Source: Anaerolinea sp. (lineage in GTDB: Bacteria; Chloroflexota; Anaerolineae; Anaerolineales; Anaerolineaceae). Taken from it: a stretch of 64,000 nt of DNA. A program made the translations under genes and the position numbers. The DNA is taken from NCBI GenBank assembly GCA_020725865.1, contig DYEC01000020.1, forward strand, positions 1-64,000, read 5' to 3'. The first letter of the stretch is position 1; every line of letters starts with the position of its first letter. A model generated the notes under the pieces. That model worked only from the letters and a program-made list of their open reading frames with translations. It ran no database searches and was not told the DNA's origin. This document shows, one piece after another, positions 4,650-56,472 of this stretch.

Positions 4650-4740
4650 GTGAAGCTTCGGCAACCCGACAATCTCGTTAGAGAGACTCGCGGCTTTGCG
4701 CCCCCATATTACTATGGGTTAGCTCTTTCGTGCTCCTGAA
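4650..4740 (-). promoter_or_regulatory. GEMM-I family cyclic-dinucleotide riboswitch aptamer
   Basis: Read on the minus strand, the region contains the conserved GEMM landmarks in order: CACGAAAGAGCTAACC, a hairpin CCATA-GTAA-TATGG with a GNRA loop, the invariant GGCGCAAAGCC (4692-4702), a second arm, and GGGTTGCCGAAGC (about 4655-4667). This matches the GEMM-I (c-di-GMP-I) consensus by eye. The base aligning with G20 of the Vc2 riboswitch reads A, a change known from the subgroup that responds to cyclic AMP-GMP. It sits about 100 nt before the start of the secreted phosphoesterase. The rest of the 408-nt gap between 4553 and 4960 is AT-rich; the 3' part near 4760-4860 probably holds the promoter, but I could not fix its boxes. 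Confidence 0.85.
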
Positions 4741-43665: not shown

Positions 43666-43737
43666 AGGCGACGATGGGATTTGAACCCATGATCAGGGTT
43701 TTGCAGACCCTTGCCTTAGCCGCTTGGCCACGTCGCC
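43666..43737 (-). tRNA. tRNA-Cys (GCA)
   Basis: The acceptor arms GGCGACG/CGTCGCC pair, the anticodon loop reads CTGCAAA with anticodon GCA, and the T arm has GGGTTCAAATCCC. CCA is not encoded. It lies 22 nt downstream of tRNA-Gly on the same strand. Confidence 0.96.
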
Positions 43738-43759
43738 GCGTAAAGTTTCTTAAACGTAG

Positions 43760-43832
43760 AGCGGGCAACGAGACTCGAACCCGTGACCTTCTCCTTGGCA
43801 AGGAGGTGTTCTACCAACTGAACTATGCCCGC
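43760..43832 (-). tRNA. tRNA-Gly (GCC)
   Basis: The acceptor arms GCGGGCA/TGCCCGC pair, the anticodon loop reads TTGCCAA with anticodon GCC, and the T arm has GGGTTCGAGTCTC. CCA is not encoded. First of a two-tRNA unit. Confidence 0.96.
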
Positions 43833-44992: not shown

Positions 44993-47857
44993 ATGGATGA
45001 CTGGCAGAAATTGCTCTCCGAGCTGGCGAAAAAAATGACCCCGCCGCTGGCGTACGCGGTGATAGTGATCATTGTGCTGGGACTGCTGGGCGAGCGCATC
45101 CCGGCGCAGTATGTCACGCTGGTGTATCTTCTCAGCCTTGGGGTGGCTGTGCTGTGGGCTTTGATTGAGATTGCACTATTAATCAGGAAAGGCCGTCTGG
45201 AAACACCCGCGGAGAAACCGACTGATTCCCAATTCACCCAACCTCAAGAGCCGTCCAAAGCGCCGAAAGAAGATCCGCGCACAGCGTATCTGCAGGTGAT
45301 TATTGAGAAGTGTAGAAGTTTGCGGCTGGTAGGTATTGACCCGCAGGCGGCCGACCCCCTGCGCGGCGGCTTGACACTTGAGTCGGTATATACACAATTG
45401 GATACCACCACCCTGGTTGAACTTGGTGAAGAGAAAGCAGTCATTGAAAAACAGGAAAGAATTCCTGACTGGCTGTTTTATTTGGAAAAAAGACGACACC
45501 CGCTTGGCGCATTGGAGGCACTTTCCGGGGCGGATAGCCGCCGTATGGTTCTGCTGGGACAGCCCGGTACCGGCAAGTCCACTTTTGTGCGTTACCTGGC
45601 GTTGCGCATGGCGCAGGCGGAAATGGACCGTTCGCGCAGTGTGCAGGATTTACTGCCCGGCTGGCAGGGAGGCGCTGTGTTGCCGGTGCTGATCTCGCTG
45701 GGATGGCTGGCGGAAACCATTCCGGCTGACTGCAAGCAAGGCAGAGCCCGTTTAATAGAAGCATATCTTATTGAATCCTTGCAGATGGATGAACGAACAG
45801 CGCCGTTTGCCGGCTGCATTCTTGACGAACTGAAGCGATCTGGCGGTCTGGTGCTTTTTGACGGGCTGGATGAGGTGGCTGACCTGAAACTGCGACCAAT
45901 TGTGGTGCAGGCGATTGAAGATTTTGTACAGAGTTACGGAAAACATCCTGCCAGCCGCTTTCTTGTTACCTGTCGTACGTATTCTTATACTCATGACCCG
46001 AAATGGCAATTGACGGGCTGGGAGACCCATGAGCTGGCGCTGTTAGATGATAAAAAAATCCGTTTCTTTATCAATGCATGGCACGATGCACATATCGGTA
46101 TTGACAAGGGCCGTGAGCAAGATTATGAGCGTAAGCGCAAGAGCATGCTGGCAGCCCTTCAGCCGAACGACCGGCGCCGGCTCGACGAAATTGCACCTTT
46201 TCCCATCCTGTTGACCATGATGGCAATGGTGCATACGCATTACGGCGAATTGCCGGATACGCGCGCCGAGGTGTATGAGCGCTGCGTAGATTTGTTGCTG
46301 GTGCGCTGGGAACTGGAGCGCCCGATTGTCGGCCAACCTAATCAAACCCGTAAACGAACCATCATTGATGAACTGGGCATTCCAAGAGTAGTGCTCGACC
46401 GCGCGCTTTGGGAAGTGGCTTACAAAGCGCATCAAGGCCGCCCGGCGGAAGACGAAGGCGAGCGCAGGGCAGCCTTGGTCACCGAAGATTTGCTCTGTGG
46501 TGTGCTTCAGGCACATTTTCAAGACCTCGATAAAGTCAAAATATTTCTGGAATACTGTCAGAGTTCCAACGGTTTGTTGATGCTGCAGGGCAGTGTAATG
46601 CCGCCTGATGCTCCTCCGGGGGCACCGCCCCGGCGTATCTATGCTTTTCCGCACCCGACCTTTGAGGAATATCTGGCGGCGCGTTACCTGATCCGCCCGA
46701 ATTTTGGCAAGACCGTGCGCGATATGGCGCGTAGTAGCGACCGCTGGCGGGAGGTGATTCTTTTACTGGGAGAGACGCTTTGCTTTTTCCAGAAGGATCA
46801 AGAACGTATGGAAAGTTTGCTGGACAAGCTGGCGCCGCAAGATGCGCCCTCAACATCCCACGACCCAGACTGGCGTCCTATCTGGTATGCCGGAGATTTG
46901 CTGACGCTCTACCGGCGTGCCTTTCCAGGCGAACCTGCATCCAGCGATGAGCGCATTCGCAGGCTTTTATATGAATTGGTGGTTCGGGTCGCGCTCTCGC
47001 CACGTGAGCGCGCTTCCGCCGCGGATGCGCTGGATGAGCTCGGCTACCTGCCGGAAGACCTCTACGATTTCATCGCCATCCCGAGTGATGAAGCGCCGGC
47101 GTTCTTCATTGCCAAATACCCGGTGACCAACCTGCAGTACGAGCGTTTCCTCAAATCCGGGCGGTTTGCCGAACGGCAGTGGTGGGTGAATTTCCCAATG
47201 TTCGATGAGAAGAGCCGGCGGATGAGGGGCAAAAGCTGGGGCAGTCAGGGCTGGGAGTGGCTGCAGACGGCGCTCAAGGATGAAGACAACCCGGTGCGGG
47301 ACGGTGTACTGTACCCGCGCGACTGGGACGATCCGCGCTTCGGCATCGCCCGCAAGACGGCGCCGGTGGTGGGCATCACGTGGTACGAGGCGAATGCCTA
47401 CTGCAGGTGGCTGGCGCAGGAGCGCGGACTGCCCGAATGGGGCTCGCTGGGGCGGCTGAACCGCGGCGGGGGAACTCTGGAGATCCGCCTGCCGGCCGAA
47501 GCGGAGTGGGCGGAGGCGGCGGGGGGTGAAGCGAATGACCGCTTTGCCTGGGGCGTGCTGAAAGACCCAAAAGAGGAAATCGTCCGCTATGCCAACACAG
47601 CGGAAAGCGGGCTCGTGCGGACGACGCCGGTGTGGATGTACCCGCAGGGTGCCAGCCCGCGCCGGGTGATGGACCTGAGCGGGAACGTGTGGGAGTGGCA
47701 GGCGAACTTTTATGATAAAGATCATGACATGTTGAGCTTGCGCGGCGGTTCGTGGAGCGGCAATTGGAGCAGCGCGCGCGTGGCGAACCGCGACTTCAAT
47801 CCCCCGTCCAGCTACTGGCTCATCGGCGGCTTCCGCCCCGTTGCCCGCCCGGTTTAA
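44993..47857 (+). CDS. DGR target: membrane-anchored NACHT/STAND-like NTPase with C-terminal FGE/C-type-lectin variable domain
   Basis: The 954-residue protein has two N-terminal membrane helices (about 18-35 and 42-65), a linker, then a P-loop NTPase: Walker A LLGQPGTGKSTFV (187-199), Walker B GGLVLFDGLDEVAD (284-297), sensor-like SRFLVTCRTYSY (321-332). A helical region follows (to about 690). The C-terminal third is a formylglycine-generating-enzyme-type (SUMF1) fold: FFIAKYPVTNLQYERFLKSG, VVGITWYEANAYCRWLAQ, RLPAEAEWAEAAGG, VMDLSGNVWEWQ, LRGGSW, and GFRPVARPV. The last 40 residues are the variable repeat. DGR targets commonly use this C-type-lectin-like fold to present variable residues. 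I infer a signal-sensing or defence NTPase whose ligand-binding face is diversified. ATG follows GCAGGAGCGGGCT. Confidence 0.93.
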   Translation: MDDWQKLLSELAKKMTPPLAYAVIVIIVLGLLGERIPAQYVTLVYLLSLGVAVLWALIEIALLIRKGRLETPAEKPTDSQFTQPQEPSKAPKEDPRTAYLQVIIEKCRSLRLVGIDPQAADPLRGGLTLESVYTQLDTTTLVELGEEKAVIEKQERIPDWLFYLEKRRHPLGALEALSGADSRRMVLLGQPGTGKSTFVRYLALRMAQAEMDRSRSVQDLLPGWQGGAVLPVLISLGWLAETIPADCKQGRARLIEAYLIESLQMDERTAPFAGCILDELKRSGGLVLFDGLDEVADLKLRPIVVQAIEDFVQSYGKHPASRFLVTCRTYSYTHDPKWQLTGWETHELALLDDKKIRFFINAWHDAHIGIDKGREQDYERKRKSMLAALQPNDRRRLDEIAPFPILLTMMAMVHTHYGELPDTRAEVYERCVDLLLVRWELERPIVGQPNQTRKRTIIDELGIPRVVLDRALWEVAYKAHQGRPAEDEGERRAALVTEDLLCGVLQAHFQDLDKVKIFLEYCQSSNGLLMLQGSVMPPDAPPGAPPRRIYAFPHPTFEEYLAARYLIRPNFGKTVRDMARSSDRWREVILLLGETLCFFQKDQERMESLLDKLAPQDAPSTSHDPDWRPIWYAGDLLTLYRRAFPGEPASSDERIRRLLYELVVRVALSPRERASAADALDELGYLPEDLYDFIAIPSDEAPAFFIAKYPVTNLQYERFLKSGRFAERQWWVNFPMFDEKSRRMRGKSWGSQGWEWLQTALKDEDNPVRDGVLYPRDWDDPRFGIARKTAPVVGITWYEANAYCRWLAQERGLPEWGSLGRLNRGGGTLEIRLPAEAEWAEAAGGEANDRFAWGVLKDPKEEIVRYANTAESGLVRTTPVWMYPQGASPRRVMDLSGNVWEWQANFYDKDHDMLSLRGGSWSGNWSSARVANRDFNPPSSYWLIGGFRPVARPV
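47736..47855 (+). repeat. DGR variable repeat (VR), 3' end of the target gene
   Basis: The 120-nt segment encodes residues about 915-954 of the target and aligns with TR at a constant offset of 1640 nt. The variable codons correspond to AAC or AAT (Asn) codons of TR: for example TR would read GSWNNNWNNARVANR where VR reads GSWSGNWSSARVANR. The A-free block CGGCTTCCGCCCCGTTGCCC near its 3' end is identical in both copies and fits the role of the initiation-of-mutagenic-homing sequence. Confidence 0.96.
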
Positions 47858-47873
47858 GCTTTTGTTTTCTGTG

Positions 47874-47904
47874 CAAGCCCCCGCAGCGCAGCGGAGGGGG
47901 CTTG
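47874..47904 (+). promoter_or_regulatory. Inverted repeat just downstream of VR (homing hairpin or terminator)
   Basis: CAAGCCCCC and GGGGGCTTG form a perfect 9 bp stem 16 nt after the target stop codon, followed by TGTTTTCTG. In studied DGRs a hairpin/cruciform shortly after VR assists target recognition; it also looks like a terminator. Confidence 0.75.
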
Positions 47905-47961
47905 TGTTTTCTGCGTTCTGCCGGCTTAAAATTTTTTTAAAAGCCTTTTAAGGAGTGAATA

Positions 47962-49047
47962 TTGAAAACCTATCGCAATCTCTACCCGCAGGTCTATGAC
48001 TTCGAGAACCTCTATCTGGCGTACCGCCGGGCACGCAAGGGCAAACGCGGCAAAGCCGAGGTGGCGGCTTTTGAGCGCAGTTATGAGGAAGAGTTGTTTA
48101 TCCTGCAAAACGAACTGCTCCGCCGGACCTACACTCCGGGCGAATACCGCAGTTTTTACATCCATGAACCGAAACGCCGGCTGATCTCCGCTGCCCCGTT
48201 CCGCGACCGGGTGGTGCACCATGCGCTGTGTCAGGTCATTGAGCCGATCTGGGAGCGGCGCTTTATATTCGACAGTTACGCCAACCGGCTGGGCAAAGGC
48301 ACGCACCGCGCCCTCGACCGCGCCGTGCAGTACGCCCGCCGCTACCGCTACTTTCTGCAGTGCGACCTGCGCCAGTTCTTTCCCTCCATAGACCATGCTA
48401 TCCTGAAGGCTGAATTGGAGCGGTTGATTGCCGATGAAGATGTGCTCTGGCTGTGTGAGGTCATCCTGCACAGCGGGGCGGGCGTGCTCAGCGAAGAGTA
48501 TGAAATGGTCTGGTTCCCCGGCGATAACCTGCTGGCGGCGGCGCGTCCGCGCGGACTGCCGATTGGTAATCTGACCAGTCAGTTCTGGGCGAATGTGTAT
48601 CTCAACCCGTTCGATCACTTCATCAAGCGCGAGCTGAAGTGCGCGGCGTATCTGCGTTACGTGGATGACTTTCTGCTGTTTGGCAATGACGTGCGGCAGT
48701 TGTATGACTGGCGCACGGCAATTATTGAAAGGCTGGCTGTATTGCGGCTGACCCTGCACGCCGAAAGCGCGCAGGTGTTCCCGGTGCGGACCGGCATACC
48801 GTTTCTGGGTTTCCGCCTGTATCCGACTCACCGGCGGGTCAAGGCGCGCAAGGTAATTGCCTTTCGGCGCAGGTTGAAATCCATGCTCAAGAAACCCGTC
48901 CCTTATGAAAAATTGACCGCCAGCATCCGAGGCTGGATCAACCACGTCCGCTATGCGGATAGCTGGGGATTGCGCCGCAGGATGCTGGGCTTTCGTATCC
49001 CGCAGGAGGCGCATGGAAGAGTCACCGCTGTTTGTCCGCACGCATGA
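47962..49047 (+). CDS. DGR-type reverse transcriptase
   Basis: The 361-residue RT starts at TTG 47962, with AGGAG 7 nt upstream. Fingers/palm motifs are RRLISAAPFRDRVVHHALC, the first catalytic Asp (135) in FLQCDLRQFFPSIDH, GLPIGNLTSQFWANVYLNP (199-217; the IG-x-x-x-SQ form typical of DGR RTs) and YLRYVDDFLLFGND with YVDD at 233-236. There is no maturase, endonuclease or RNase H domain, so group II intron and retroviral types are excluded. It would copy the TR RNA with errors at adenines. It overlaps the Avd gene by 35 nt. Confidence 0.96.
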   Translation: MKTYRNLYPQVYDFENLYLAYRRARKGKRGKAEVAAFERSYEEELFILQNELLRRTYTPGEYRSFYIHEPKRRLISAAPFRDRVVHHALCQVIEPIWERRFIFDSYANRLGKGTHRALDRAVQYARRYRYFLQCDLRQFFPSIDHAILKAELERLIADEDVLWLCEVILHSGAGVLSEEYEMVWFPGDNLLAAARPRGLPIGNLTSQFWANVYLNPFDHFIKRELKCAAYLRYVDDFLLFGNDVRQLYDWRTAIIERLAVLRLTLHAESAQVFPVRTGIPFLGFRLYPTHRRVKARKVIAFRRRLKSMLKKPVPYEKLTASIRGWINHVRYADSWGLRRRMLGFRIPQEAHGRVTAVCPHA

Positions 49048-49348
49048 TTTTCTGCTCTGGCTGCTGCCGCAGGTGCAGAAGTTTCCCCGCCCGTACCGCT
49101 TTACGCTCACCGAGCGCATTCAGCGCAAAGCGATGGATTTTCAGGATTTGATCGTCTCGGCGGGCAAAGCACAGGGCGGAGAACGCAAGGCTTTTCTCAT
49201 GCAGGCGGACACGGCGCTGGAGCAGTTGCGTTTCTGGCTGCGCTTTGGACGCGAGCTGGAACTGTTGACCGCTGGTCAGTATGAACATGCCGCCCGCATG
49301 CTGGTCGAGATGGGGAGGCTGTTAGGAGGCTGGATCAAACGAGCCTGA
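49013..49348 (+). CDS. avd: Avd-like four-helix-bundle DGR accessory protein
   Basis: ATG 49013 (MEESPLFVRTHDFLLWLLPQ) has AGGAGG 3 nt upstream; the frame could extend to 48953. The 111-residue basic protein consists of four amphipathic helices, with FPRPYRFTLTERIQRKAMDF and LEQLRFWLRFGRELELL as recognisable family segments (23S-rRNA-IVP / bAvd type). In the Bordetella phage DGR, Avd forms a pentamer that binds the RT and the TR RNA and is required for cDNA synthesis. The gene sits between RT and TR. Confidence 0.92.
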   Translation: MEESPLFVRTHDFLLWLLPQVQKFPRPYRFTLTERIQRKAMDFQDLIVSAGKAQGGERKAFLMQADTALEQLRFWLRFGRELELLTAGQYEHAARMLVEMGRLLGGWIKRA

Positions 49349-49375
49349 GGCTCGTGGATTGGGCGTCAACCGGGG

Positions 49376-49495
49376 GCTTGCGCGGCGGTTCATGGAACAA
49401 CAATTGGAACAACGCGCGCGTGGCGAACCGCAACAACAATCACCCGAACAACAACTGGAACAACAACGGCTTCCGCCCCGTTGCCCGCACGATTT
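49376..49495 (+). repeat. DGR template repeat (TR)
   Basis: The 120-nt non-coding repeat begins 27 nt after the Avd stop. It is rich in AAC triplets (I count 34 A), and 21 of the A positions differ in VR while no non-A position does. By outcome the changes are mostly A to G, with several A to T and A to C. Confidence 0.96.
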
Positions 49496-49661
49496 TGTTG
49501 ACTGCCGGCAGTTTGTCCGGTTGAGAGACCGGCTTCGAGGCAAAACTGGCTGGTTGCACGCCCGGTGAACTCTGCAATGCAGAGTGCCAAATATTGAATC
49601 GCCCTGCCCGTTTCGGTAAGCGCAGGCAGTCCTGTGAAGAGCATCCGGGCAGGTCTTTTTT
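49496..49661 (+). ncRNA. Structured 3' tail of the TR RNA with terminator
   Basis: Downstream of TR are successive hairpins: ACTGCCGGCAGT (49501-49512), CCGGT...ACCGG (49517-49532), CTCTGCAATGCAGAG (49570-49584) and a terminator whose outer stem CCTGCCCG/CGGGCAGG (49603-49610 / 49646-49653) runs into TCTTTTTT and encloses an inner CAGG/CCTG hairpin. The position corresponds to the spacer RNA that binds RT and Avd and primes cDNA in the Bordetella system. No ORF is supported in this 390-nt stretch between Avd and DoxX other than TR and this tail. Confidence 0.7.
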
Positions 49662-53312: not shown

Positions 53313-54893
53313 ATGGCGAGGTGGTTAGAAATGAAGCGCGGTAGGCACAGTGTAAACTTAAAGCGCTGGCTGTGGATGTCTCTGCTGGCGCTGTTTTGCT
53401 TTGCCTGCGCGTTGACCACCACCGATGATCTGCCTGCGCAGGTGACGCGCAGTGTCCTGTTCAATCCCACTCTGCGCGTAACGCCGCCGTCATGGGCAGT
53501 GCAGGCGACGCCGTCCTACCGTCTGCCGCCGACGCGTGTTCCCGGCGCACCTGTACTGACTCCCACTGCGGATGCGCCGCGCGTCTTGCCCACCCTGCGC
53601 GCCGAAACGGAGATTTACATCGTCCAGCCCGGCGATACGCTGGGGGTGATCGCCCGGCGCTACGGCATCAGCCTGGATCAACTGGTGCGGGCAAACCAGA
53701 TTGAGAACCCCGACCTGCTTTCCGTTGGGCAGGTGCTGACTATCCCGCCGCCCTTACCGGTTGCCGTTGCACCTTCCTTCAAAATCATTCCCGACTCGGA
53801 ACTGGTGAATGGACCCGTCAGCGCGTTTTTTGACCTCGCCGGATTTATTCAGGATCAAAACGGTTACCTGCGACAGCATCAGGAAGACGTGGACGGCGAA
53901 ATGCTCTCCGGAACGCGGATTGTCGAACGCATTGGATTGGAGTATTCGGTCAACCCGCGCCTGCTGTTGGCGGTTCTGGAATACCAGAGCGGCTGGCTGA
54001 CTGCCGTGCAGGTGGATGAGATAACGAAAGAATATCCTGTCCGCTATGTGGATGCCAACCGTAAAGGGTTGTACCGTCAGCTTGCCTGGACTGCCAACAA
54101 CTTGAACCGCGGCTATTACCTCTGGAAAGTGAACGCTGTCCCTGCGTTGATTCTAGCCGATGGGAAGATTGTCACAGCGGAAGAGACTGTGAATGCCGGA
54201 ACGGCGGGCGTGCAGTACCTGTTCAGCCAGTTGTACCATCTCGAGGATTGGCAGCGGGCGGTTGGGGAAAAGGGCTTATTTGCAGTGTATCAAAAGTTGT
54301 TTGGCTATCCCTTTGATGTTGCGCTCGAGCCGCAGATTCCGCATGATCTGACACAGCCGCCGCTTGAACTGCCCTTTGAACCGGGTATCCTGTGGTCGTT
54401 CACCGGCGGACCGCACGGCGGCTGGGGGGATGGCTCGGCATGGGCGGCGTTGGATTTTGCGCCGCCGGGCAACGCGCTGGGTTGTGTGCCTTCGGATGCA
54501 TGGGTGACCGCGGCGGCAGATGGGCTGATCGTCCGTTCGAGGTATGGTGTGGCAGTGCTCGATCTGGACGGCGATGGGTTTGAACAGACTGGCTGGACAA
54601 TTCTGTATCTGCATCTGGACAGCCGCGAGCGGATTGCCGAAGGGAGCTGGGTGCGGACAGGGGACCGGCTGGGGCATCCATCCTGTGAGGGTGGAATTTC
54701 CAGCGGGACGCACATTCACCTCGCGAGACGGTATAATGGAGAGTGGATTTCCGCCGATGGCTCGCTTCCTTTTTACATGAGTGGCTGGGTATCAGAAGGT
54801 ACTGGCATTGAATACGATGGTTACCTGAAGAAAGATGGGCAAATTGTCGAAGCATGGAATGGACGCAGGGCTGAAAATCAGATTCAGCGCTAG
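53313..54893 (+). CDS. LysM/M23-like cell-wall lipoprotein, paralogue 1 of 3
   Basis: The 526-residue protein has a hydrophobic signal ending LFCFAC. A LysM domain (about 97-145; YIVQPGDTLGVIARRYGISL, SVGQVLTIPP) binds peptidoglycan. A middle helical region (about 165-330) contains NPRLLLAVLEYQSGWLT and NRKGLYRQLAWTANNLNRGY. The C-terminal M23/LytM-like domain shows SFTGGPHGGWGDGSAWAALD, WTILYLHLDS and SGTHIHLAR. The His and Asp of the usual HxxxD motif are farther apart than in LytM, so activity is uncertain. Confidence 0.82.
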   Translation: MARWLEMKRGRHSVNLKRWLWMSLLALFCFACALTTTDDLPAQVTRSVLFNPTLRVTPPSWAVQATPSYRLPPTRVPGAPVLTPTADAPRVLPTLRAETEIYIVQPGDTLGVIARRYGISLDQLVRANQIENPDLLSVGQVLTIPPPLPVAVAPSFKIIPDSELVNGPVSAFFDLAGFIQDQNGYLRQHQEDVDGEMLSGTRIVERIGLEYSVNPRLLLAVLEYQSGWLTAVQVDEITKEYPVRYVDANRKGLYRQLAWTANNLNRGYYLWKVNAVPALILADGKIVTAEETVNAGTAGVQYLFSQLYHLEDWQRAVGEKGLFAVYQKLFGYPFDVALEPQIPHDLTQPPLELPFEPGILWSFTGGPHGGWGDGSAWAALDFAPPGNALGCVPSDAWVTAAADGLIVRSRYGVAVLDLDGDGFEQTGWTILYLHLDSRERIAEGSWVRTGDRLGHPSCEGGISSGTHIHLARRYNGEWISADGSLPFYMSGWVSEGTGIEYDGYLKKDGQIVEAWNGRRAENQIQR

Positions 54894-56472
54894 GTCTGCT
54901 TTCCCTTTCGTTGTGCTGAGTGTGTGGTTGCTCTCAATTCTGGCATGTACGCGCAGCGTCGTTCAGCCTTGGGAAGTGACCGCAACCGTTCAGGTGCTTT
55001 CGTTTACACAGACCGCGCTGGCGGCAAAAATGAGCGGCGGCTCTTTGCACGCGCAGACGGTTATATCGCCGACCCCTGTTAATTCGCCAATGCCATTACC
55101 GACCTCAACGCCGATTCCTCCCGACCCGACCAATGAAGTTGCGGTTACAACGCCCGAAGACCCGGTGGTATTGTATTACTCGCAAGCGGGCGATACGCTG
55201 GGCGCGCTGGCGGTGCGTTTTGGCGTCACAACAGATCAGTTCATCACCATCAGCCCGGTCAGCAGTCCCTACGCGCTGCTGACACCAAACGAGTTAATTG
55301 TTATCCCGAAGACGCTGAAAGAAACCGGTCCGGGTGAAAAGCTTATGCCGGATAGTGAAGTGGTTTTTTCTCCCTCGGCGGTTAATTTTGATATTGATGC
55401 GTTTGTGCAGAATGCTGGCGGCTATTTAAGCACCTATCGCGAGTGGCTCTCTACCGGCTGGAATACCGGCGCGGATGTCATCGAACGGGTGGCGATTGAA
55501 AACTCCATCAACCCGCGCTTGCTGCTTGCCATGCTGGAATATCAAAGTCACTGGGTCTATGGACAACCGCAGAACCTTGCCCAGACGGATTACCCGATGG
55601 GATATAACGAATTCAATCATAAAGGGCTGTATAAACAGTTGAGCTGGTCGGTTCAGCAGTTATCCATCGGGTATTACGGCTGGCGGGCTGGTTTACTGAC
55701 TGAGCTGGAATTTCCTAAAGAGCCGGTTGACAAGACGATGCGTCTGGCGCCCGAGTTAAACGCGGGGTCGGTGGCAGTTCAGTATTTGTTCTCCAAGCTG
55801 TACAACAAGAGTGACTGGGGCAGGGCGCTTTATTCGCCCGATGATAGCTTGATTACGACGTATGAGAGGATGTTTGATAATCCGTGGCTGCGCGCGCAGG
55901 CTGTCGAACCCCTGTATCCGACTACATTGACCCAGCCAAAGCTGGAATTGCCTTTCAAGGTGGGGCGCACGTGGAGTTTCAGCGGCGGACCGCATTCTGC
56001 CTGGGGTCCCGATGGCGCGCTGGCGGCGCTGGATTTTGCTCCCTCGGCAATGGAACATGGCTGTGTTGAGTCACTGGATTGGGTAACTGCCTCTGCGCCC
56101 GGTCTGGTTGTCCGCTCTGGAAATGGCATTGTAGTTATTGACTTAGATGGAGATGGTTACGAGCAAACGGGGTGGGCACTGTTGTATCTGCATGTCAGCA
56201 CAAAGGATCGCATTGCGTCCGGAACGCTGGTAGCTGAAGGCGACCCGCTGGGGCATCCTTCCTGTGAAGGGGGAATGGCAACCGGCACGCATGTTCACAT
56301 TGCCCGCAAATACAACGGGGAGTGGATTCTGGCAGATGGACCGGTGCCTTTTGTTTTGAGCGGCTGGCGCGCTCATGCGGGCAGTGAACCCTATAAGGGT
56401 ACATTGACCAGAGACGACCAGATTGTCACTGCCTGTCAGTGCGGTTCTTTTGAAACCCGGATTACACGCTGA
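54859..56472 (+). CDS. LysM/M23-like cell-wall lipoprotein, paralogue 2 of 3
   Basis: ATG 54859 overlaps the end of paralogue 1 by 35 nt; the frame could start at 54835. Lipobox LSILAC. A LysM-like segment reads YYSQAGDTLGALAVRFGVTT. The middle region has NPRLLLAMLEYQSHWVYG, and the M23-like domain SFSGGPHSAWGPDGALAALD, ALLYLHVST and ATGTHVHIARKYNGEW. Domain order and length match paralogues 1 and 3. Confidence 0.82.
   Translation: MDAGLKIRFSARSAFPFVVLSVWLLSILACTRSVVQPWEVTATVQVLSFTQTALAAKMSGGSLHAQTVISPTPVNSPMPLPTSTPIPPDPTNEVAVTTPEDPVVLYYSQAGDTLGALAVRFGVTTDQFITISPVSSPYALLTPNELIVIPKTLKETGPGEKLMPDSEVVFSPSAVNFDIDAFVQNAGGYLSTYREWLSTGWNTGADVIERVAIENSINPRLLLAMLEYQSHWVYGQPQNLAQTDYPMGYNEFNHKGLYKQLSWSVQQLSIGYYGWRAGLLTELEFPKEPVDKTMRLAPELNAGSVAVQYLFSKLYNKSDWGRALYSPDDSLITTYERMFDNPWLRAQAVEPLYPTTLTQPKLELPFKVGRTWSFSGGPHSAWGPDGALAALDFAPSAMEHGCVESLDWVTASAPGLVVRSGNGIVVIDLDGDGYEQTGWALLYLHVSTKDRIASGTLVAEGDPLGHPSCEGGMATGTHVHIARKYNGEWILADGPVPFVLSGWRAHAGSEPYKGTLTRDDQIVTACQCGSFETRITR

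Follow-up and report, generated by a model that had tools for sequence, protein, structure and literature searches.

A two-target diversity-generating retroelement in an Anaerolinea genome and the probably fixed differences at the 3′ boundary of its variable repeats

The first 64,000 nucleotides of contig DYEC01000020.1 in the Anaerolinea sp. assembly GCA_020725865.1 (the window) carry what its sequence indicates is a complete diversity-generating retroelement (DGR), consisting of a target gene, a hairpin, a reverse transcriptase (RT), the accessory protein Avd, a template repeat (TR) and a spacer (Sp). An adenine-type pair of TR and variable repeat (VR), a DGR-type RT, Avd, a lectin-type gene holding the VR and a hairpin after the VR are all present, and the whole system is a further example of a known DGR type. 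Our reading, to which we assign a probability of roughly 0.9, is that a chromosomal DGR performs adenine-mutagenic transfer from TR to VR, and that the differences at the 3′ boundary of the repeat lie where only the VR pairs with the primer of cDNA synthesis. Comparison with other DGRs points to the same arrangement more widely, in that near the 3′ boundary it is the VR rather than the TR that appears complementary to the spacer RNA priming cDNA synthesis.

On the forward strand, the VR (VR1, 47736-47855) and the TR (49376-49495) align without gaps over 120 nt at an offset of 1640, and an independent repeat search recovers this pair, 120 nt long and 83% identical. The first-pass annotation had counted, by hand and without gaps, 21 mismatches over 34 TR adenines, with A to G dominant and A to T and A to C also present. 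An exact alignment in which the TR base was tabulated at each mismatch bears this out: TR has A at 21/21 mismatches (A>G 11, A>T 6, A>C 4), non-A mismatches inside the repeat number zero, and with 34 A in 120 nt the hypergeometric p for such a pattern is 6.6e-15. The edges also fall where they had been placed, at A47735/G49375 on the 5′ side and A47856/T49496 on the 3′ side. Nineteen of the 21 differences lie within TR positions 17-91, a stretch with 32 adenines (47752-47826 in VR1), and are of the random type; the other two, at TR positions 114 and 117, fall past a 22-nt invariant block and are identical in both VRs of the genome. The annotation's conclusion that the VR has been rewritten by adenine-directed copying thus stands for 19 differences and does not extend to the two most 3′ ones, which look like a conserved boundary signature. 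Such copying is supported because the adenine-only pattern recurs in two VRs from one TR, and because a DGR-type RT and an Avd scoring above its curated cut-off adjoin the repeats and related loci show a like pattern. The TR itself is rich in AAC, lies outside any recognised gene and serves as template for both VR1 and the remote VR2.

VR2 was located by searching the TR against the genome, and comprises 120 nt on the minus strand of a different contig (C8:145988-146107). It has 18 mismatches to the TR, every one at a TR adenine (18/18; p = 2.0e-12), and stands at the end of the gene for an 850-aa protein, target 2, in which a KAP NTPase domain (2.8e-34) is combined with an FGE domain. Targets 1 and 2 share a 905-bp module that is 93.5% identical and includes the VR, the initiation of mutagenic homology (IMH) and the hairpin, and no similarity was found between their N-terminal NTPase parts. 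VR1 and VR2 differ at 18/34 TR-adenine sites and at 0/86 other VR sites, while the flanks of the two VRs differ at 41/714 bases upstream and 0/70 downstream. At the upstream rate, the chance of no difference at 86 sites is 0.006 (0.010 with the rate from both flanks), and the zero non-A differences would fit repeated resetting of the VRs from the TR, for which they are modest evidence. That a 120-bp repeat was simply duplicated and then diverged under biased mutation, a reading to which the truly duplicated target modules lend some color, is next to impossible given that all mismatches to TR in both VRs are at A with none at other bases in the core, that the targets differ at no non-A VR site against 41/714 upstream, and that RT and Avd adjoin the repeats and many related loci have a like pattern.

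Both targets appear to be co-directional with replication because the signs of GC skew match their coding strands, skew being positive on the window strand that codes for target 1 and negative at locus L015, where target 2 is on the minus strand; the estimate comes from skew in two cases. This orientation is described as the favoured one for DGR targets in the portion of PMC12875486 covered here.

The window locus is ordered target-RT-Avd-TR-spacer, with every component on the forward strand. Target 1 (44993-47857) encodes a 954-aa protein with the VR at its very end. Hydropathy gives two hydrophobic helices at its N-terminus (approximately residues 14-67), and motif inspection an intact, NACHT/STAND-like P-loop (Walker A GQPGTGKST, Walker B LVLFDGLD). 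Its C-terminal domain matches Pfam FGE-sulfatase, of the C-type lectin type, at 3.3e-30; the match reaches the C terminus and the VR lies inside it. None of the PADLOC defence models matches target 1 (0 families), and against the NACHT antiphage protein EruA (NF058535) it scores 29.6 bits, below the cut-off of 1000. DGR targets need a hairpin or cruciform after the VR, and an inverted repeat with the potential to form one in DNA lies directly 3′ of VR1 (47874-47904; DNA fold of 47858-47920, -13.1 kcal/mol, z -2.5). This hairpin showed no 4-nt GRNA loop of the kind that phage DGRs have.

The RT gene (47962-49047, 361 aa) begins at a TTG after GGAG. In an alignment of 14 sequences the RT has the motifs LPIGNLTSQ and YVDD, the DGR-type motifs being [ILV]GxxxSQ and YxDD, and a profile of the RT alignment finds as its best solved match the BPP-1 DGR RT (8ub7, E 9.8e-77), followed by a group II intron RT (3.1e-33). 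The whole genome has one RVT_1 match. The avd gene (49013-49348), with an ATG after GGAGG, overlaps the end of the RT gene. Scanned as the open reading frame (ORF) 48953-49348, it scores 95.7 bits against NF033474 (cut-off 80) and 72.1 bits against bAvd (cut-off 40), and its solved relatives are 4dwl (Bbp7) and 8ub7 (BPP-1 Avd); Avd is present in most DGRs, not all. The spacer (49496-49661, approximately 165 nt) lies 3′ of the TR, its extent set by sequence and by analogy to the BPP-1 spacer. It ends in an inverted repeat (49603-49610/49646-49653) with a run of T behind it; by eye this resembles a terminator, and a terminator scan restricted to loops of at most 8 did not list it. In a promoter and terminator scan, the numbers for the DGR region resembled those of shuffled sequence, and an Rfam scan at the gathering threshold returned no DGR RNA match.

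The 3′ end of VR1 resembles an IMH (47827-47855): 22 nt are identical to TR (47827-47848), after which C47849 and G47852 stand opposite TR A49489 and A49492, and the same two bases are found in both targets. An RT search among named genomes gave 19 loci, mostly from Anaerolineae and other Chloroflexi and also from records titled Acidobacteria, Bryobacterales and Rhodocyclaceae. RT matches occurred in 14/61 related genomes, the element's own genome counted, and a pair scan of the 39 loci L016-L054 yielded adenine-type TR/VR pairs in 24, several of the other 15 being partial or ending near the RT. Loci repeating earlier ones were left out (L054, L062, L069, L166, L234-L236, L238-L241 and L244). 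By script, the first difference past the invariant block is TR A/VR C in 21/23 distinct RT-related TRs; at L021 the script halted elsewhere, and visual inspection beyond a slight difference in length gives A/C there too. The A/C boundary is also seen in 11 of 14 additional non-duplicate loci from the phylum Chloroflexota that were found by Avd and have a boundary. Among viral DGRs collected with the RT profile, 72/80 loci gave a TR/VR pair, and the commonest boundary is TR C/VR T (25/44 distinct contexts). Because A/C is nearly constant in the relatives and C/T is commonest in viral DGRs, the boundary base is, on these alignments, set by lineage (A/C here, C/T in many viral DGRs) and not a random product. 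The differences at 49489 (A/C) and 49492 (A/G) are probably fixed differences between the IMH and its TR counterpart (IMH*) rather than random rewriting, since they are shared by both targets and related DGRs nearly always have A/C there.

It could be argued that all 21 differences, the boundary pair included, are products of RT mutagenesis, as every one is at A and the RT mutates template adenines. We consider this improbable, given that the same C and G occur in both VRs, that the boundary is A>C in 21/23 relatives when A>C is the rarest change in their mutable core (87/628), and that the corresponding position in viral lineages carries C>T or another change. A>C at the second A of AAC is likewise rare, at 16/357 sites in 40 TR/VR pairs from L016-L085, a figure confounded by protein selection; the substitution bias reported for the BPP-1 enzyme in the part of PMC12875486 covered is the opposite.

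Two further observations concern the relatives. At L027, L016 and L023, two VRs per TR occur within a few kb. A 1.5-Mb genome (G684), from the class of a Rhodocyclaceae genome, has 10 Avd-model matches, all under the cut-off and several with tied scores (L253, L257, L258, L260 and L262-L267).

In many relatives, a segment of the spacer is complementary to the VR right at this boundary. In the window, VR bases CCGGTTT (47849-47855, forward strand) are complementary, with one G.U pair, to AAACTGG in the spacer (49543-49549, forward strand), the proposed cDNA primer strand, whose register was taken from homology with relatives (compare BPP-1 Sp 47-56). In the proposed TR:Sp duplex, the fixed adenines A49489 and A49492 face spacer G49549 and C49546 as mispairs; this duplex was assessed by cross-locus comparison, a single fold of TR plus spacer having left it undecided. 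In BPP-1 (AY029185), VR 118-127 pairs unbroken with Sp 47-56, ending at A56, through nine Watson-Crick pairs and one G.U, and TR:Sp pairing breaks at the IMH/IMH* differences. Five TR/VR differences follow position 117, of which three pair in VR only, one in both (in TR by a wobble) and one in neither. A56 is the reported priming nucleotide for cDNA synthesis at TR 117. In the literature excerpts covered, the priming of cDNA within IMH* in BPP-1 is ascribed to an adenine internal to the spacer (PMC12875486), and a 21-bp BPP-1 element with five TR mismatches is stated to set the direction of transfer (PMC3240598). Unbroken VR:Sp pairing extends for 10 nt in BPP-1, 12 in L085, L242 and L037, 13 in L127, 14 in L027 and 15 in L237, and TR pairing there for 3-6 nt. 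Both VRs of L027 pair over 14 nt, one of them through a wobble, and G.U/T.G wobbles in the VR opposite the spacer are also seen at window 47851 and in the TGATCAC of L182, L188 and L223.

The pairing rule was then counted across DGRs. Pooled tests took only TR/VR pairs of at least 90 bases whose invariant block was 12 or longer and whose flank sufficed, leaving 157, 157 and 156 distinct rows, and the register was set only by bases common to TR and VR, at least five of them. The BPP-1 GenBank record (L165) was tested apart and added as one row to the C>T viral set, its IMG copy (L167) being among the BPP-1-like rows. Loci within a lineage are related, and all p values therefore overstate independence. 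Of the 156 sets, 93 could be placed, and the first difference pairs with the spacer in VR only at 68, in TR only at 4, in both at 6 and in neither at 15. When the region upstream of the TR was used as control, the corresponding counts were 15, 9, 3 and 22 of 49 (Fisher 2e-6); the reversed spacer gave 16, 5, 5 and 34 of 60, and the complementary strand 18, 6, 9 and 17 of 50. Across the 156 DGRs the VR:Sp duplex exceeds the TR:Sp duplex (Wilcoxon 7.6e-15).

Individual lineages were also compared. The A/C discovery set held only A/C rows up to L085, with one L074 pair excluded for its shifted segment. In 33 distinct TR/spacer sets of the A/C lineage, the VR duplex score averages 6.61 with its own spacer vs 4.82 with other spacers (p 5e-5), and the TR duplex score 3.98 vs 3.95 (p 0.44); 13 of the 33 could be placed, and their 29 differing positions pair in VR only at 24, TR only at 1, both at 3 and neither at 1. 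In 23 of the 48 sets of the C/T viral lineage, spacer nt 52-60 hold the complement of a VR 6-mer that begins, as in BPP-1, two bases ahead of the difference; for the TR the count is 0/48. The 67 BPP-1-like loci yielded 50 with a pair, 43 of them distinct, in which VR exceeds TR in 35, falls below it in 5 and ties in 3; among 41 filtered rows, TGACCAC is present in the VR of 34 and the TR of none, and the spacer core GTGGTCA in 38. A further bacterial set combined genomes from the class to which the Rhodocyclaceae record belongs and from the phylum of the Acidobacteria record with extra loci; of its 42 loci, 23 gave a pair, and 20 of these were distinct. Here VR values are 6.75 vs 5.07 (permutation p 5e-5) and TR values 4.40 vs 4.70 (p 0.88), with VR above TR in 17/20 and below in 3/20.

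Several points weigh against this reading. The window's own spacer register is not unique, with three tied options, and its assignment rests on homology; the longest VR match to the window spacer by script is at another site, within a local inverted repeat. Spacer permutation gave p 0.38 inside the C>T viral lineage and p 0.19 inside the BPP-1-like loci, in both of which the VR and Sp cores are all alike. A looser count that included the first base past the homology found VR only 97 and TR only 59 (control 209 and 169), and was redone without that base because TR and VR are unrelated there. The boundary of L041 is A/T, neither VR nor TR pairs at the first position in L072, and other boundaries are misplaced by the script or break the rule, with L041, L063, L071, L247 and L256 as examples. 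The NACHT match of target 1 (1.6e-4) is under the Pfam curated cut-off. Activity of the element is predicted from its genome sequence, and its targets are assigned to conflict systems by analogy.

The boundary bases of the VR could have been copied from the spacer primer at integration, the match then arising by copying and not by selection for pairing. The VR is indeed the complement of the primer strand; however, wobbles occur in several VR:spacer duplexes, which pairing would tolerate and copying would erase, and for this reason we favour pairing and regard copying as distinctly unlikely. Alternatively, the boundary differences may just weaken the TR:Sp duplex and so free the primer nucleotide in the RT active site, VR:Sp complementarity being a by-product. 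An RNA duplex at cDNA initiation has been reported. Most lineages do have a TR:Sp mispair at the end of the duplex or close to it, and the reported priming by a spacer adenine within IMH* (BPP-1; PMC12875486, in the part covered) would also suit such weakening. It does not, however, predict 10-15 nt of unbroken VR:Sp pairing where the TR pairs over 3-6 nt, and we consider it rather unlikely.

Under the pairing mechanism that we propose, the early steps are those of the DGR literature: an RT-Avd complex would reverse transcribe the TR-spacer transcript, making errors at adenines, and the mutated cDNA would replace the VR, diversifying the lectin-type tips of NACHT-like and KAP NTPase proteins. 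How mutagenized cDNA finds and replaces the VR is incompletely understood, according to the section of a 2026 paper covered (PMC12875486). We suggest that the spacer primer RNA and the cDNA would form a single strand colinear with the VR sense strand, that pairing of primer and IMH would help to place the cDNA at the VR, and that the TR, mispaired with the primer, would be a poor target and be spared, which would set the direction of transfer. By analogy, the diversified targets would most likely be sensors in a conflict (anti-phage) system, and proteins that join NACHT or KAP domains to a C-type lectin domain (CLec) are described as putative antigen sensors in the excerpts covered of PMC10907252 and PMC7159879. 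For DGRs generally, we put forward tentatively, at slightly less than even odds, that complementarity to the spacer RNA primer is what defines the IMH of the VR, that IMH/IMH* differences are the bases pairing in VR only, that the primer guides cDNA to the VR and spares the TR, and that each lineage has its own fixed boundary base.

As for the surroundings, genes for tRNA-Cys and tRNA-Gly adjoin the DGR locus (43666-43737 and 43759-43832, minus strand), and nearby RecA- and S1-like ORFs, named by reading the ORFs, suggest a chromosomal setting. Elsewhere in the window are a c-di-GMP-I riboswitch aptamer (4657-4734, minus strand, 57.4 bits) and, by eye, paralogous LysM/M23-like ORFs side by side (53313-54893 and 54835-56472).

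The system resembles that of BPP-1 (mtd/avd/TR/brt) in its RT, Avd, adenine-directed transfer from TR to VR, IMH/IMH* difference, hairpin after the VR and VR-complementary spacer segment. It differs in gene order, which is target-Avd-TR-spacer-RT in BPP-1, in consisting of chromosomal host genes with NTPase-lectin targets and two targets per TR, and in its first boundary difference, A/C here and C/A in BPP-1. Literature likenesses that follow are confined to the excerpts covered. Clade 5 (5D) cellular DGRs of multicellular bacteria (Dore et al. 2024, PMC10907252) likewise carry the VR in a C-terminal CLec/FGE domain that is attached to a STAND/NACHT or KAP NTPase, commonly have two targets and include filamentous Chloroflexi among their hosts; unlike in that clade, the second target here is on a separate contig, and the likeness to 5D is one of architecture. 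The remote variable proteins of cyanobacterial DGRs (PMC7517822) also combine one DGR with dispersed CLec paralogs that differ in their N-terminal domains, although the phylum and those domains are others. The DUSEL4 nanoarchaeal DGRs (PMC4372165) share a lineage-specific fixed difference at the TR/VR 3′ end (TGGAAT vs TGGGGT), and the excerpt states no link of their IMH/IMH* to the spacer. No prior statement of VR:spacer complementarity was found in the literature searched, which lacked key mechanism papers.

With this element, the DGRs already linked to putative bacterial immunity gain a two-target member that would diversify a NACHT-like and a KAP NTPase protein. More weight falls on the boundary rule than on the element itself, as the rule bears on how cDNA locates the VR. 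If the rule is true, the spacer primer RNA would be a built-in guide that directs cDNA to the VR and spares the TR.

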